Shown: one piece after another, positions 16,522 through 26,817 of the stretch | Position numbering within the stretch: the stretch's first letter is position 1 | How the letters are laid out: each line of letters begins with the position of its first letter | Origin: Rhodospirillaceae bacterium | GTDB lineage: Bacteria > Pseudomonadota > Alphaproteobacteria > Thalassobaculales > Thalassobaculaceae | Direction: 5' to 3' | Length of the DNA: 38,345 bases | Assembly (NCBI GenBank): GCA_002709155.1 | Contig: PAQA01000033.1 | Coordinates: 3,715 to 42,059, forward strand | Notes under the pieces: model-generated | What the model saw: the letters and a program-made list of their open reading frames with translations, nothing else | Told to the model about the DNA's origin: nothing | Database searches by the model: none | Made by a program: the position numbers and the translations under genes

Positions 16522-17079
16522 ATGAAAAGATCTAAAGCATTGAAATTATCACTAATGGGAGCGAGCGCTCTGACACTAGTAGCTTGCGATAACAGCCAGG
16601 AAGTAGGAGTTTTCGAGACAATAGATCAATGCGTAGATAAAGCAGGATTTACCCGTGATGTATGTGAGAAAAATCAGAAAGTCGCTCAGTCGGAACATAT
16701 TAAGGTGTCACCAAAATATACTTCTTTGTCAGATTGTGAGACAGACTTTGGCTCCGAAAAATGTGAAGTGGCGCCTCAGAGAACGACCTCGGGGGGATCA
16801 GTGTTTATGCCAATGATGATGGGGTATATGATGGGTAACATGTTAAGTGGAGGTTCACGCGTTGCTACTCAACCACTTTACCGATCTCGTGATGACTCCC
16901 GAAATTTTAGAACTGGCGATAACCAAAAGGTATCTGGGAAAACTGGAGTTACAAGAGTAGCAGGTCATACAACAAGAGCTCCCTCAACCAAAACAAGAAC
17001 GATCCGTCGGGGTGGCTTTGGATCGGCTGCTAGGGCCTCTGCAGGAAGATTCCGAAGTTTTCGTGGCTTCGGGGGTTAG
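16522..17079 (+). CDS. DUF1190 (YgiB-like) lipoprotein
   Basis: 185-aa predicted lipoprotein. The signal peptide MKRSKALKLSLMGASALTLVAC ends in a lipobox LVAC with Cys22 as the lipidated residue. The body has Cys-containing repeats (FETIDQCVDKAGFTRDVCEK; YTSLSDCETDFGSEKC), a Met-rich stretch MPMMMGYMMGNML, and a basic Gly/Arg/Ser-rich tail ending RSFRGFGG. This fits DUF1190, typified by E. coli YgiB. The next gene, 11 bases downstream, is the YgiC-like protein. The ygiB-ygiC pairing is the usual arrangement and strengthens both calls. Function not established. Confidence 0.87.
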   Translation: MKRSKALKLSLMGASALTLVACDNSQEVGVFETIDQCVDKAGFTRDVCEKNQKVAQSEHIKVSPKYTSLSDCETDFGSEKCEVAPQRTTSGGSVFMPMMMGYMMGNMLSGGSRVATQPLYRSRDDSRNFRTGDNQKVSGKTGVTRVAGHTTRAPSTKTRTIRRGGFGSAARASAGRFRSFRGFGG

Positions 17080-17090
17080 TAGTCCAGAAA

Positions 17091-18251
17091 ATGCAGCGTA
17101 TTGTGGTTGAGGAGCGAGCAGACTGGAAAGCTCAGGCAGAGTCTCTAGGGTTTAACTTTCACACCATGTATGGCACTGCCTATTGGGATGAGACAGCGTG
17201 TTATCGTTTCTCAATGAAACAAATAGAGAATGACATTGAGGATCCGACAAATGAGATAGAACAAATGTGCTTTGAATTAGTCTCTCGTGCTGTTAATGAC
17301 GAGGAAATTTTTACAAGGCTCGCAGTTCCTGAAGCATACTGGGATTATGTGAGGACTAGCTGGTTAAACCAAGAGAAAAATTTATATGGTCGTTTAGACC
17401 TTTCTTATAATGGGACATCACCTGCAAAACTTCTTGAGTATAATGCGGATACTCCCACCTCACTTTATGAAAGTTCGGCATTCCAGTGGGTGTGGCTTGA
17501 GCAAGCTATGGAACAAGGTCTAATACCAGCTGGTTGCGATCAATTTAACTCGATCCACGAAAATATGGTTAAGGCGTTTGAGAAATTTGGAATAGATGAT
17601 CAATTGCATTTGACGGCATGCAAAGGAAGTGAGGAAGATGAGGGGACTGTGAGATATATAGAAGAGTGTGCTGTTCAAGCAGGGTTGGAAACCAGCTTTA
17701 TATTTCTTGAAGATATAGGTATCGATGAAAATGGTTTTTTTACCGACCTTGATGATGAGAGGATAACCGCCCTTTTTAAGCTGTACCCCTGGGAGTGGAT
17801 TTTTAAGGATGAATTTGGACTTTCATTACAAAAAAATCAGTTAACAATGATCGAACCCCCTTGGAGGATAATTTTGTCTAACAAAGGTATGCTCCCTTTA
17901 CTTTGGGAAATGTTTGAGGGACACCCAAACTTATTGCCGGCTTATTTTTCCAATGACCATCGAGCGAGTAAAATAGAAAATAATTTTGTAGAAAAACCTT
18001 TATTCTCTCGAGAGGGGGCTAATGTCGAAATAACTAAAGCAGATGGAAGTATCATTAGAGAGGATGGGCCGTATGGCGAGGAAGGTACCATTATACAAGC
18101 CTTACATCCGCTACCCGTGTTTGATAACAATCATACAGTAATAGGTTCTTGGCTAGTAGCGAGTAACGCTTGTGGAATTGGAATTAGAGAGGATGATACA
18201 GCCATCACAAAGGACACTTCACGTTTTTTGCCGCACGTTATTTTGGATTAA
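17091..18251 (+). CDS. Glutathionylspermidine synthase-like ATP-grasp protein (YgiC/YjfC family)
   Basis: 386-aa protein of the glutathionylspermidine synthase C-terminal (pre-ATP-grasp plus ATP-grasp) family, the same length I recall for E. coli YgiC. Recognisable pieces are LGFNFHTMYGTAYWDE at the start, LLEYNADTPTSLYESSAFQW, the MIEPPWRIILSNKGMLPLLWEM segment, KPLFSREGANVEI (ATP-grasp Lys and Glu region), and the C-terminal SWLVASNACGIGIRED. It lacks the amidase domain of true glutathionylspermidine synthetases. Peptide-polyamine ligation is presumed for the family but unproven. It is co-transcribed with the DUF1190 lipoprotein gene. A hairpin terminator lies 18 bases past the stop, though its T-run serves the opposite strand better. 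Confidence 0.9.
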   Translation: MQRIVVEERADWKAQAESLGFNFHTMYGTAYWDETACYRFSMKQIENDIEDPTNEIEQMCFELVSRAVNDEEIFTRLAVPEAYWDYVRTSWLNQEKNLYGRLDLSYNGTSPAKLLEYNADTPTSLYESSAFQWVWLEQAMEQGLIPAGCDQFNSIHENMVKAFEKFGIDDQLHLTACKGSEEDEGTVRYIEECAVQAGLETSFIFLEDIGIDENGFFTDLDDERITALFKLYPWEWIFKDEFGLSLQKNQLTMIEPPWRIILSNKGMLPLLWEMFEGHPNLLPAYFSNDHRASKIENNFVEKPLFSREGANVEITKADGSIIREDGPYGEEGTIIQALHPLPVFDNNHTVIGSWLVASNACGIGIREDDTAITKDTSRFLPHVILD

Positions 18252-18262
18252 TACATGTTATG

Positions 18263-18291
18263 AAAAAAGCCCAGGCATTTAATGCCTGGGC
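18263..18291 (-). terminator. Strong intrinsic terminator (minus strand)
   Basis: A perfect 10-bp inverted repeat GCCCAGGCAT...ATGCCTGGGC with a 3-base loop is followed on the minus strand by TTTTTT. It ends the candidate sRNA and would also stop read-through from lysR. On the plus strand the hairpin is followed only by GAGTTTAAA, so it is a weaker stop for the YgiC-like gene. Confidence 0.75.
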
Positions 18292-18379
18292 GAGTTTAAA
18301 CAGGGAGGTTTTCGTCTGGGAGACGAAGGAGCCGAAGCCCCAGATATTTTGGTCACTGATGTTTTATCATCAGAACATA
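18263..18379 (-). ncRNA. Candidate small RNA with three hairpins and an intrinsic terminator
   Basis: Read on the minus strand, this stretch has the build of a trans-acting sRNA of about 117 nt. In order from the 5' end: hairpin CTGATG-ATAAAA-CATCAG (18373-18356); hairpin GGGGC-TTCG-GCTCC with a C(UUCG)G tetraloop (18341-18328); an immediately adjacent 7-bp hairpin TTCGTCT-CCC-AGACGAA (18327-18311); a single-stranded AACCTCCCTG (18310-18301); then a perfect 10-bp stem GCCCAGGCAT-TAA-ATGCCTGGGC followed by six T (18291-18263). A -10-like TATACT lies at 18391-18386, about 6 bases ahead of the proposed start. CCUCCC is complementary to Shine-Dalgarno sequences. I do not recognise the family. No ORF explains this region. 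Confidence 0.55.
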
Positions 18380-18455
18380 GGTTATAGTATACCGGTTTAT
18401 ATCTGCGCTAGTGACAATTGAGCAAGGCCGCTATGCGTATTTTGCATGACTGAGA

Positions 18456-19346
18456 TTAAAATGAAGTTTTTGCTACTTCTTGAATCAAGAAATCTCTCAG
18501 CACGGAAATCCGCTTTGATCTCTTTAACTCTTCTGGGTATACGAAAAATGCAGGGACCGCTGGGCCGTCTATATCAGGTAATATTCTTAATAAACTTGGA
18601 TCCTCAGAAGCTAAATAATCAGGTAACGCCGCTATCCCAACCCCGCCCTGTACCGCTCGAAAAATCCCATAAACATTATTAACACGGACAATTTTTTGCT
18701 GGGACGTTAATGACTCTGACAGTAATCCGAGTAACCAGTTAGCTTCGCTATAAGGCAAGCTAATACTCTCTCCATAAATCACTATTCTATGTTTGGTAAG
18801 GTCTCGTATAGACTTTGGGATTCCATAATTTTCAACGTAACGTGGGGACGCATAAAGATGAAATCTAATAGTTTTCAAATGACGCTGAATTAAGTCGGGT
18901 TGCTTGGGGGGAGTTAGACGGACAGCGACGTCCGCTTGCCGCATTGATAGGTCCAATTCAAAATCATTTATAAATAGTGTCACGTTAACTTCTGGATACA
19001 ATTCTATAAAACGTCCGATACGTGACGCTAGCCAGGTAGAGCCAAATGCCACAGTACTTGTGATTCGTAAATTTCCTTTTGGACGCTCTCGTCCCTCACT
19101 TATAAGTGCTTCAGTGGTAGCTAATTTTGAAAACATTTCGCGGGCGGTACTAAATAAAACCTCTCCTTGCTCGGTCAGTATTAGTCCTCGAGCGTGTCGG
19201 TGGAAGAGTGCTACGTTTAAACTTTGTTCCAAATTACTTATTTGTCGGCTCACAGCAGACTGACTGAGATTGAGGCGTTCCCCGGCGTGAGTGAAACTAC
19301 CAGCCTCGGCAGCAGCGTGAAATACGCGAAGTTTATCCCAGTCCAT
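18456..19346 (-). CDS. LysR-type transcriptional regulator
   Basis: 296-aa LTTR. The N-terminal winged helix-turn-helix is clear (FHAAAEAGSFTHAGERLNLSQSAVSRQISNLEQSL, about 9-43), followed by the linker helix and a periplasmic-binding-protein-like effector domain (about 90-290). The start MDWDKLRVFHAAAEAGSF is typical of an alphaproteobacterial LTTR commonly found beside trxB. Three TTATAAC boxes at 20-bp spacing lie directly upstream and are probably its own binding sites. It sits 86 bases downstream of trxB on the same strand. The effector and remote targets are unknown. Confidence 0.92.
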   Translation of the reverse strand: MDWDKLRVFHAAAEAGSFTHAGERLNLSQSAVSRQISNLEQSLNVALFHRHARGLILTEQGEVLFSTAREMFSKLATTEALISEGRERPKGNLRITSTVAFGSTWLASRIGRFIELYPEVNVTLFINDFELDLSMRQADVAVRLTPPKQPDLIQRHLKTIRFHLYASPRYVENYGIPKSIRDLTKHRIVIYGESISLPYSEANWLLGLLSESLTSQQKIVRVNNVYGIFRAVQGGVGIAALPDYLASEDPSLLRILPDIDGPAVPAFFVYPEELKRSKRISVLRDFLIQEVAKTSF

Positions 19347-19432: not shown

Positions 19433-20380
19433 TTAATCTCCTAAGCTAGCTATATACTTTTCGCTTTCTAATGCCGACATGCATCCAAGGCCTGCTGCAG
19501 TAACGGCCTGTCGATATACTTTATCGACGCAATCTCCTGCAGCGAAAATTCCAGGCACATCTGTTTTTGTGGTGCCTTGCTTAACGATAATATAGCCGTC
19601 TTCATCCATTTCTATTTTATTTTTAAATGGCTCTGTAGCTGGTGTATGACCGATTGCTATGAAACATCCTTGGGTTGAAATTTCTGAACTCTTTTTTGTT
19701 ATCAGATTTAGGATTCGTACACTTTCGACACCTGCCCCCGGTTTGGAGTCCCCACAAATCTCAGTAACTTCGCTATCCCAAATAATATCAATATTTGCGC
19801 TTTTGAAAACGCGGTCTTGTAGGATTTTTTCAGCGCGCAATGTGTTTCTTCTATGAATTAGAGTTACCTTAGACGCTATATTAGCTAGATATAAGGCCTC
19901 TTCTACCGCCGTATTTCCTCCTCCTACAACTACTACCTCCTGATTTCGGAAGAAAAAACCGTCGCAGGTAGCGCAAGCGGATACTCCCCGACCATTGAAA
20001 ATAGATTCGCTTTCTAAGCCAAGCCAACGCGCCTGGGCACCTGTAGCCACGATTAGTGAGTCAGCTGAATATGTATCACCCGAGTCTCCTTTTAACAAAA
20101 AGGGCCTGTCGGCAATATCGATAGAAGTAATAATATCTTGAACAATCCTTGTTCCAACATGTTTTGCTTGCGCTTCCATTTGTTCCATTAACCAAGGACC
20201 TTGGATCACATCTGCGAAACCTGGATAATTCTCAACATCTGTTGTAATCGTCATTTGTCCTCCTGGTTGAAGTCCCGCAATTAAAAGTGGAGACATATTG
20301 GCGCGCGCTGTATAGATTGCCGCGGTTAATCCTGCAGCCCCTGATCCAATTATTATTACTTTTTCCTTATTGGTTGGCAT
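19433..20380 (-). CDS. trxB: Thioredoxin-disulfide reductase
   Basis: 315-aa FAD/NADPH flavoprotein that reduces thioredoxin. FAD motif GSGAAGLTAAIYTARA is at about 12-27, the redox-active CATC is in SACATCDGFFF (near 135), the NADPH motif is GGGNTAVEEALYL, and the C-terminal FAD motif is GIFAAGDCVD. The ENYPGF segment is present. Length is standard for the low-molecular-weight bacterial enzyme. It is followed by the LysR gene; the pairing is common in alphaproteobacteria from memory. Cytoplasmic. Confidence 0.96.
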   Translation of the reverse strand: MPTNKEKVIIIGSGAAGLTAAIYTARANMSPLLIAGLQPGGQMTITTDVENYPGFADVIQGPWLMEQMEAQAKHVGTRIVQDIITSIDIADRPFLLKGDSGDTYSADSLIVATGAQARWLGLESESIFNGRGVSACATCDGFFFRNQEVVVVGGGNTAVEEALYLANIASKVTLIHRRNTLRAEKILQDRVFKSANIDIIWDSEVTEICGDSKPGAGVESVRILNLITKKSSEISTQGCFIAIGHTPATEPFKNKIEMDEDGYIIVKQGTTKTDVPGIFAAGDCVDKVYRQAVTAAGLGCMSALESEKYIASLGD

Positions 20381-23571: not shown

Positions 23572-26500
23572 TTAAAGATAAGACTGCAACGACACAACTT
23601 CAAGAGGCCCCTCTCTAATTGCAGTAATGGCTTGAACTGCCGCTTTGGCACCTTCAACCGTTGTATAGTAGGGGATCCCATGCGTTAACGCAGATCTACG
23701 TAAACTAAAACTATCTTGAATTGCCTGAGCCCCATCCGTAGTATTTATTACCAAATCTATATGCCCAGAAATCATATTGTCAACGACATGTGGCCTTCCT
23801 TCAAGAACCTTTTTAATTCGCTTAACCGGCAAATTAGCGTTTTTTAATGCTTCAGCGGTTCCTGATGTGGCCAACAAAAGAAAGCCTTTTTCATGTAGTA
23901 TCCGCGCGGGCTCTAATATTGAATCTTTGTGATCATCACGGACAGATATGAAAACACTGCCGGCTTGTGGTAACAGCGTGCCCGCTGCTATCTGGCTCTT
24001 GGCGAAAGCAGATGAGAAATTGATATCTATTCCCATTACTTCTCCCGTCGATTTCATCTCTGGCCCCAAAATACTATCAACGCCGGGAAATCGGGCAAAT
24101 GGGAAAACAGCTTCTTTTACGGCTACATGTGTGGGACGGGTTTCCTTGAGATTAAAAGAAGCTAGTGGCTCTCCAGCCATGACCAGGGCAGCTATTTTAG
24201 CAATCGGCACTCCAGTAGCTTTTGCAACAAAAGGGACAGTTCGACTAGCTCTAGGATTAACCTCTAGAAGGAAAACTTCGCTATCTTTCACTGCAAATTG
24301 AATATTCATTAACCCACAGACTTTTAATCCTTTAGCCAGCTGTCTCGTCTGTTCCTTAATTTTATCTATGATTGGTTCTGGCAAAGATTGTGGTGGTAGA
24401 GAGCAAGCGCTATCTCCCGAGTGAATACCCGCTTCCTCAATATGTTCCATTACGCCTGCGATATAGGTTGTTGTGCCATCCGCTAAACAATCAACATCAA
24501 TTTCTATTGCACTTGACAGAAATCGATCTATTAAAATTGGATTTTCACCTGATGCAGTTATTGCATTTTGCATATACCGCTTTAAAGAAATTGTATCATG
24601 AACTATTTCCATAGCTCTTCCACCAAGAACATAAGATGGCCTAATGACGATGGGGAATCCAATTTTATTTGCAGCATCCTCGGCCTCATCGAGTGTAGAT
24701 ACGATCTCATTGGCGGGTTGTTTTAATTTTAATTCATCTAATAACGCTTTAAACCGTTCTCGATCTTCTGCTAAATCGATTGAGTTAGTGGGCGTGCCTA
24801 AAATAGGAATATTTGCTGCTTCAAGGGCATGACAAAGTTTAAGAGGAGTTTGACCCCCAAGTTGAACGATGACCCCCTTCACCGACCCTTTTTTTTGCTC
24901 TGTTCGTATCAACTCAATGACATTCTCAGCTGTTAACGGTTCAAAGTATAATCGATCCGAAGTATCATAATCGGTTGATACGGTCTCAGGATTGCAATTG
25001 ACCATTATAGTTTCATAACCCGCTTCCGTTAGGGAATACGCAGCATGAACACAACAATAATCGAACTCTATACCTTGCCCAATTCGATTTGGCCCGCCGC
25101 CAAGAATTATTATTTTTTCACTATTTGTAGGCTCGGATTCACATTCTGTTAAGTTATGTCCATCCCCTTCGTAGGTCGAGTACATATATGGTGTTTTGGC
25201 TTCGAATTCAGCGGCACAGGTATCTATGCGCTTAAAAACGGGATGAATAGTGAGTTGTTCCCGGCGTTTAGTTACCTCAGACTCTTTTATATTAAGCAGT
25301 TTTGCTATGCGAGCATCGGAGAATCCATCCTGCTTCAACTTAAATAGACTTGGTCTATCATTGGGTAGGCCATTGATCTTTAGTGCAGACTCTTTTTTCA
25401 CAATAGATTCGATGTGCCGAAGAAACCATTTGTCTATAGAACAGGCATTATAGATGTCGTCGATAGAAAGACCGGACCTAAAAGCTTGTGCCACCCGTAG
25501 GAGTCGATCGGGTACTGGCTCTGAAAGGGCCGCAATAATAGCACTTTTATCTACAGCGCCTGCGATATTAGTTCCTAGCAGTTCTATATCATCGAGGCCG
25601 CTTAGGCCGGTTTCCATTGAATTGATAGCTTTTTGAAGGGATTCAGAAAAATTGCGACCGATTGCCATAGCTTCTCCAACGGACTTCATGGAGGTGCTCA
25701 ACGTGGCTTCTGCTCCAGCAAATTTTTCAAATGTAAACCGTGGAATTTTAGTGACAACATAATCTATGGTTGGTTCAAAACTCGCTGGTGTTGCACCAGT
25801 GACATCATTATCTAACTCATCAAGCGTGAAACCAACAGCTAATTTAGCTGCTATTTTAGCAATTGGAAATCCCGTAGCTTTAGATGCAAGTGCTGATGAT
25901 CTGGAAACTCGTGGATTCATTTCAATCACAACAAGTCTTCCGTTTTCAGGATTAACAGCGAATTGAACGTTAGAGCCACCTGTATCTACACCTATCTCCC
26001 TCAGCACCTCTATTGAGGCGTTGCGCATCCTTTGGTATTCTTTATCAGTAAGTGTAAGCGCCGGGGCAACTGTTATAGAGTCGCCTGTGTGTATGCCCAT
26101 AGGATCTACATTTTCTATAGAACAAATGATAATGCAGTTGTCCGCGCAGTCACGGACAACTTCCATTTCAAACTCTTTCCAGCCTAGAACAGATTCCTCG
26201 ATTAAAACTGTACTAACCGGTGATAGTCGGAGCCCTGTTCTTAAAATCTCATCAAATTCATCCAAGTTATACGCGATGCCGCCGCCGGTACCTGCTAGGG
26301 TAAAGGAGGGTCGTAGTATTGCTGGCAAGCCGACCTCCGCTAATGCTCTTCGGCCATCTTCCTCTTTTTCTACAAGACGAGAGCGCGGTGATTCGAGGCC
26401 AATCTTGTCCATCGCGTCTCTAAAAAGGAGCCTATCTTCTGCTTTTTCTATGGCTTCAAGATTAGCGCCAATTAGCTCCACATTAAGTCGTTCCAGCGTG

Positions 26501-26817
26501 CCATCCTTAGCAAGAGTTAAGGCTGTATTGAGAGCAGTCTGACCACCCATAGTTGGAAGTAAAGCATCGGGCTTTTCTTTTTCAATGATCCGAGCAACCG
26601 TATCGCTTGTTATTGGTTCGACATAAGTTGCATCAGCAAGGCCCGGATCTGTCATAATTGTCGCTGGGTTGGAATTCACCAATATGATTCGGTAGCCTTC
26701 CTCTTTCAGTGCCTTGCAGGCTTGGGTTCCGGAATAGTCAAATTCACATGCTTGACCTATTACGATTGGCCCCGCTCCTATAATCAAAATACTAGATATA
26801 TCGGTGCGCTTAGGCAT
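23572..26817 (-). CDS. carB: Carbamoyl-phosphate synthase large subunit
   Basis: 1081 aa, full length. It makes carbamoyl phosphate from bicarbonate, ATP and ammonia supplied by CarA, feeding arginine and pyrimidine synthesis. Two homologous ATP-grasp halves are visible: the first begins near [21 protein letters not shown] and the second near [20 protein letters not shown]. Repeated signatures include [10 protein letters not shown] / [12 protein letters not shown] and [18 protein letters not shown] / [18 protein letters not shown]. An oligomerisation region lies between them. The C-terminal MGS-like allosteric domain (about 935-1081) starts near [14 protein letters not shown]. It overlaps the carA 3' end by 8 bases. 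Confidence 0.98.

Follow-up and report, generated by a model that had tools for sequence, protein, structure and literature searches.

Organization of the locus

The window, a 38,345-nt stretch of DNA from a Rhodospirillaceae bacterium, contains a previously unannotated small RNA gene of ~117 nt on the minus strand. The gene follows a LysR-type regulator gene and trxB, both located upstream on the same strand (Table 1). On the side facing away from lysR, a glutathionylspermidine-synthase-like (YgiC-like) gene runs convergent to the small RNA and forms a pair with a DUF1190 (YgiB-like) gene (16522-18251). The source assembly is fragmentary, with 1.86 Mb and a completeness of 71%.

Table 1 Features of the trxB-lysR-small RNA locus in the window.
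Feature	Position	Strand	Remarks
trxB, thioredoxin reductase (TIGR01292)	19433..20380	(-)	60% identical to S. meliloti neighbour
LysR-type regulator, LsrB/VtlR orthologue	18456..19346	(-)	48% identical to S. meliloti LsrB
LsrB/VtlR-type operator, ATGC-N7-GCAT-N3-NG-N3-T (ATGCAAAATACGCATAGCGGCCTT)	18424..18447	(-)	about -68 to -45 from predicted start
-10 box TATACT	18386..18391	(-)	sequence
Predicted small RNA, ~117 nt	18263..18379	(-)	start inferred from -10 box; fold z -5.7; kept in 84/190 class genomes
Hairpin P1, CTGATG/CATCAG core	18352..18376	(-)	fold
Hairpin P2, GGGGC-UUCG-GCUCC	18328..18341	(-)	fold; covariation in relatives
Hairpin P3, stem UUCGUCU/AGACGAA, loop CCC	18311..18327	(-)	fold
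CUCCCA within P3, identical to AbcR motif M1	18317-18322	(-)	M1 from PMC5461406
Single-stranded linker, holds CCUCCCUGUU at 18299-18308	18292..18310	(-)	fold; SorX model match
Rho-independent terminator, 10-bp stem (18269-18291) and U6 (18263-18268)	18263..18291	(-)	terminator scan

The regulator is assigned to LsrB/VtlR by its full-length identity (48% over 296 aa) and by synteny with trxB. The loci of S. meliloti and R. leguminosarum follow the order trxB, lsrB/vtlR, two ar15 (AbcR) RNAs, arsR, and Agrobacterium has been described with the order trxB-vtlR-abcR1-abcR2 (PMC7486931). A redox role is known for the cysteines of S. meliloti LsrB (PMC8844928). As the window LysR has no cysteine in its entire protein, the disulfide redox sensing of S. 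meliloti LsrB may not apply to it.

Structurally, the small RNA consists of three hairpins, a single-stranded linker and a terminator. The 117-nt minus strand folds at -41.9 kcal/mol, compared to -23.0 +/- 3.3 kcal/mol for dinucleotide shuffles (z -5.7, 0/200), and still beats the shuffles when the terminator is left out (z -3.2, 1/200). The parts listed by the sequence-only reading are all present, namely the TATACT box, three consecutive hairpins, the C(UUCG)G tetraloop (in P2), the CCC in a hairpin loop (in P3), the single-stranded CCUCCC (18308-18303 in the fold) and the perfect 10-bp terminator stem followed by six U. No recognisable -35 box precedes TATACT, in agreement with that reading; the transcription start was placed at ~18379 from the -10 box. 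Besides the CUCCCA of P3, CCUCCCUGUU in the linker constitutes a second anti-Shine-Dalgarno motif. Of the nine terminators that the scanner found in 9 kb, this one is the richest in G-C pairs, although the mere number of terminator-like sites does not exceed chance (9 vs 7.2 +/- 2.8).

A LysR-type operator upstream of the small RNA

Between the lysR stop and the small RNA lies an operator that, like the identity of the neighbouring genes, was not part of the sequence-only reading. Its core, ATGC-N7-GCAT, has the regular T-N11-A form of a LysR-type dyad. The box published for VtlR/LsrB, GCAT-N3-TG-N3-T, has been called divergent from the typical boxes of its class (PMC7486931); it equals the right half of the dyad together with the bases that follow, and the window operator fits it except for a G replacing the T of TG. 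The LsrB/VtlR site is thereby sharpened from a half box called divergent to a regular, testable T-N11-A dyad. At the S. meliloti abcR1 promoter (PabcR1), tandem T-N11-A motifs have been noted, and removal of the LsrB site proven there (-61 to -49) lowers promoter activity more than 22-fold (PMC8844928). In the window, the GCAT-to-T part of the operator spans about -58 to -46 relative to the predicted start. The same dyad precedes the ar15 RNAs of S. meliloti (L189, 3526) and R. leguminosarum (L190, 3420) as well as a SorX-like RNA in Paracoccus (L192, 3470).

Across relatives, 87 of the 114 LysR-linked loci contain the pair of half-sites, where shuffles give 3.4 on average and 9 at most. Of the 24 copies not behind LysR, 11 contain it (0.55 in shuffles). 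The spacer measures exactly 7 in 97 of 108 dyad occurrences, with the consensus ATGCR-N5-YGCAT-RNCNGNNNT. Elsewhere in the 1.86-Mb assembly, the operator pattern appears in two other places only, as often as a reversed control. A further ATGC-N7-GCAT dyad at 24552-24566 of the window lies inside an ORF (23572-26817), is devoid of the right-hand operator part and probably reflects chance.

Conservation across Alphaproteobacteria

The test set beforehand for the sequence-only reading, whether relatives that share the locus also conserve the element, came out strongly in its favour. DNA similarity searches recovered the small RNA from the genus (four genomes, counting that of the window), from other genera of the same family and from more distant members of the class. 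In the GTDB species set, a strict core pattern matched more than 100 contigs, the majority from Rhodospirillales in the wide sense. These include Azospirillum, Nisaea, Thalassospira, Roseomonas relatives, Reyranella, Kiloniella and Magnetovibrio, together with Caedibacter and Micavibrio MAGs. In most core-pattern loci, a LysR homologue ends 130-400 nt upstream and is itself preceded by trxB.

A covariance model (R1), built from 74 sequences picked by motif and not by neighbour gene, gave matches in 84 of 190 alphaproteobacterial genomes. With LysR orthologues located independently by protein search, 61 matches (60 genomes) lie on the same strand 98-483 nt (median 178) behind the orthologue, including matches as weak as E 1e-4 on what is a rough E-value scale. 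The small RNA occupies the same spot behind the regulator in dozens of alphaproteobacterial families. No small RNA was seen directly behind that LysR copy in the Azospirillum chromid, Methylobacterium and Tistrella loci, and a plasmid search with the small RNA as query returned no match. In a phylum sample, matches fell in Alphaproteobacteria alone, which is not counted as a negative control.

The same 190-genome sample holds 23 strong R1 copies not directly behind LysR. Such separate copies, sometimes two per genome, are found for example at L079, L080, L137, G088:C15, G140:C12 and G048:C29. About half of the unlinked copies have the operator, which hints at control in trans and at sibling RNAs as in rhizobia.

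Within the RNA, P1 is variable, and many relatives have another hairpin upstream of P2, often GATGTTGC/GCAACATC. At one pair of P2, U-A, C-G, G-C and A-U all occur among relatives; P2 covariation was assessed by counting, since R1 carries only 7 pairs. The covariation score of P2/P3 (0.175 vs 0.111 +/- 0.009 shuffled, 0/500) is support rather than proof, because the shuffles keep the relatedness among sequences. The invariance of P3 in the core-pattern set is partly due to the search pattern, which required P3. In distant LysR-linked loci, the P3 stem is changed and the hairpin is kept, as in CATGC-CCUCCCAG-GCATG of L239. RNAalifold on the first alignment found P3 alone, which, like the few pairs of R1, is attributable to MAFFT misaligning the variable terminators.

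Relation to known small RNAs

Rfam gives no family for the window at gathering scores, and the sequence-only reading had likewise not recognised one. We found no description of this RNA family in the openly readable literature searched, and its novelty is accordingly provisional. That reading had further named the CcsR/'cuckoo' RNAs as a precedent. The C-rich anti-Shine-Dalgarno loops are indeed shared, but CcsR/'cuckoo' is not the closest precedent: AbcR behind LsrB/VtlR is closer in locus, operator and exposed motifs, and SorX/SorY are closer in the 3' half. In the cuckoo-type RNAs of rhizobia, every loop repeats CCUCCUCCC, and CcsR is cut from ccaF1 mRNA; no match to these RNAs was seen in the window.

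AbcR1/AbcR2 (ar15, RF02345) of Sinorhizobium, Agrobacterium and Brucella likewise lie behind trxB-lsrB/vtlR, with the LsrB/VtlR operator at the same distance as in the window. AbcR RNAs act via a pair of exposed motifs: their first hairpin displays CUCCCA, and their linker displays GUUCCC (PMC5461406). They resemble the window RNA in the CUCCCA hairpin, a second C-rich single-stranded motif, the terminator and a predicted livK-type target. They differ in copy number (a tandem pair in rhizobia, a single copy in the window), in the linker motif (GUUCCCCUC in AbcR1, where M2 is GUUCCC, compared to CCUCCCUGUU) and in the extra UUCG hairpin of the window RNA. By sequence, the window RNA was rejected as a member of ar15: the ar15 model finds no match in it even at E 10, and with R1 the true AbcR RNAs do not rise above noise (5-12 bits). 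The ar15 model reaches 106-127 bits on the S. meliloti and R. leguminosarum RNAs, and the positive-control loci of S. meliloti, R. leguminosarum and Shinella score 97-127 bits (gathering score 40). Over the 190 class genomes, a sample that itself holds no positive control, ar15 gave no match. The ar35 model (RF02346) gave weak, sub-threshold matches only, and MmgR (suhB, RF00519), of the same Rfam clan as ar15, has no match in the window.

The best permissive Rfam match is the SorX model (RF02784), with E 2.5e-6 on 371 bases. Its 32.9 bits stay below the gathering score of 46.6, and membership in SorX was rejected on this ground. SorX and SorY (RF02651) of Rhodobacter sphaeroides have a hairpin, a ACCUCCCUGUU linker and a GC-rich terminator in common with the window RNA. 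As R1 also finds the SorX-like Paracoccus RNA (29.5 bits), the 3' half of the window RNA is probably related to SorX/SorY. SorX is cut from the ompR-1 mRNA, whereas the window RNA has LysR as its neighbour, with an operator and a -10 box in between. SorX/SorY belong to an alternative-sigma stress network, and a link to LsrB is not described in the literature searched.

Several RNAs of related type were observed behind LysR homologues in other genomes. The SorX-like RNA of Paracoccus (L192, 3533-3627) exceeds the gathering score and lies behind a LysR homologue and before purL, with no trxB. SorX/SorY-like RNAs with the same operator are found directly behind a LysR homologue in two other genomes (L273, 171-254; L274, 159-248). 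In L239 (G202) and L240 (G076), LysR is followed by two or three C-rich small RNAs in tandem, with two ATGC-N7-GCAT dyads per region. These tandem RNAs, three of them in L239, are matched by R1 and SorX and weakly by suhB; they may stand midway between AbcR and SorX in type.

The window RNA could be a true AbcR descendant that has diverged past detection by the model, a claim of ancestry compatible with the function proposed below. Locus, operator and the order of CUCCCA hairpin, C-rich linker and terminator are all the same, and the three copies of L239 match R1 and SorX and, only weakly, suhB of the ar15 clan. However, the ar15 and R1 models miss each other's members, the linker motifs differ, and replacement of the RNA behind the same regulator would give the same picture. 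We place this descent slightly short of an even chance.

Predicted targets

In S. meliloti, livK has been verified as a target of AbcR1 (PMC3712013). The assembly contains two clear LIV-type ABC binding-protein genes, one in L313, the better of the two, and one in L314. At L313, the linker is predicted to form 10 contiguous bp across the ribosome site (AAACAGGGAG : CUCCCUGUUU; -17.2 kcal/mol), and at L314 it is predicted to pair with AGGGAGG (-14.7 kcal/mol). Compared to 336 genes from 20 sampled stretches of the same genome, obtained by a simple open-reading-frame scan and treated in the same way, L313 ranks in the best 3.3% and L314 in the best 8%. Since an anti-Shine-Dalgarno motif pairs with many ribosome sites, pairing at least as good was found in 11/336 genes for L313 and in 26/336 for L314. 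The best predicted pairings in this sample belong to non-transporter genes. The single SBP_bac_3 gene of the assembly has no good pairing with the linker, and a genome-wide count of exact 9-mer target seeds gave totals much like a reversed-pattern control, with no convincing gene starts. The LIV-type pairing is suggestive only, because the family was chosen for the known livK target, several non-transporters pair better and SBP_bac_3 pairs poorly.

The main targets could also be stress or general mRNAs, in a SorX/SorY-like network, and not ABC transporters. This would fit the SorX/SorY-like 3' half and the non-transporters at the top of the gene sample. Yet transporter mRNAs, for spermidine and malate, are targets of SorX and SorY as well (PMC8307010), and both LIV-type binding-protein genes pair well; we consider a role mainly on stress or general mRNAs rather unlikely.

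Proposed function and evolutionary context

The element is real, and its conservation, its position, the operator and the P2 covariation are shown at the level of sequence. Conservation, P2 covariation, the operator and the conserved terminator also support what the sequence-only reading had proposed, a small RNA gene that stands on its own and exposes anti-Shine-Dalgarno motifs. For its transcription, control by LsrB, association with Hfq and targets, we infer the following course. As a gene of its own within the trxB-lsrB/vtlR locus, the small RNA would be activated by the LysR protein encoded just upstream, which would bind the ATGC-N7-GCAT dyad; the promoter is devoid of a good -35 box. 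The ~117-nt RNA would stop at its own terminator, with CUCCCA exposed in P3 and CCUCCCUGUU in the linker. These C-rich motifs, probably with Hfq, whose part is assumed from AbcR, would pair with a group of mRNAs at their ribosome binding sites and halt translation, transporter binding-protein mRNAs among them. The RNA looks designed for silencing transporter mRNAs, as AbcR does in rhizobia and Brucella. That it works like AbcR is the best reading of locus, operator, exposed motifs and predicted target; identity as AbcR is not claimed. As a whole, we consider an LsrB/VtlR-activated, independent anti-Shine-Dalgarno small RNA gene that represses transporter mRNAs to be quite probable.

Alternatively, the element could be no more than the end of the lysR mRNA, a structured 3' UTR with its terminator, and any small RNA would be cut from that mRNA by RNase E. 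It does lie on the same strand directly behind lysR, and its nearest Rfam match, SorX, is a 3' UTR-derived RNA processed from the ompR-1 mRNA (PMC8625941). Against such an origin stand the LysR operator at fixed spacing and the -10 box between the lysR stop and the RNA, the 23 strong copies away from lysR, and the operator kept at 11 of 24 unlinked copies. AbcR1, in the same place, moreover has its own promoter (PMC8844928). We regard processing from the lysR mRNA as distinctly improbable. A chance structure between two convergent genes, where a terminator is expected in any case, is refuted by conservation across dozens of families together with covariation and operator, and we give it practically no credence.

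AbcR RNAs have so far been treated as a Rhizobiales feature, central to uptake control, symbiosis and virulence. The arrangement of trxB, LsrB/VtlR and a C-rich small RNA may instead be an ancient alphaproteobacterial unit. AbcR (Rhizobiales), SorX/SorY-like RNAs (Rhodobacterales) and the window RNA (Rhodospirillales-like orders) would then either have branched from one RNA family or have replaced one another in series under one regulator; the true operator of that regulator would be the T-N11-A dyad ATGC-N7-GCAT. For this broader proposal, we see the balance as even. Given an RNA with the same locus, operator and exposed motifs across much of Alphaproteobacteria, the LsrB/VtlR-RNA pair would be an old core circuit, and Rfam would gain a missing family. 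Experimentally accessible hosts are Azospirillum, Nisaea, Thalassospira, Roseomonas and Reyranella. Two species records under the name Rhizobium sp. Q54 (MAGs; L056, L091) have an RNA and a locus of the Rhodospirillales type and are possibly misnamed.
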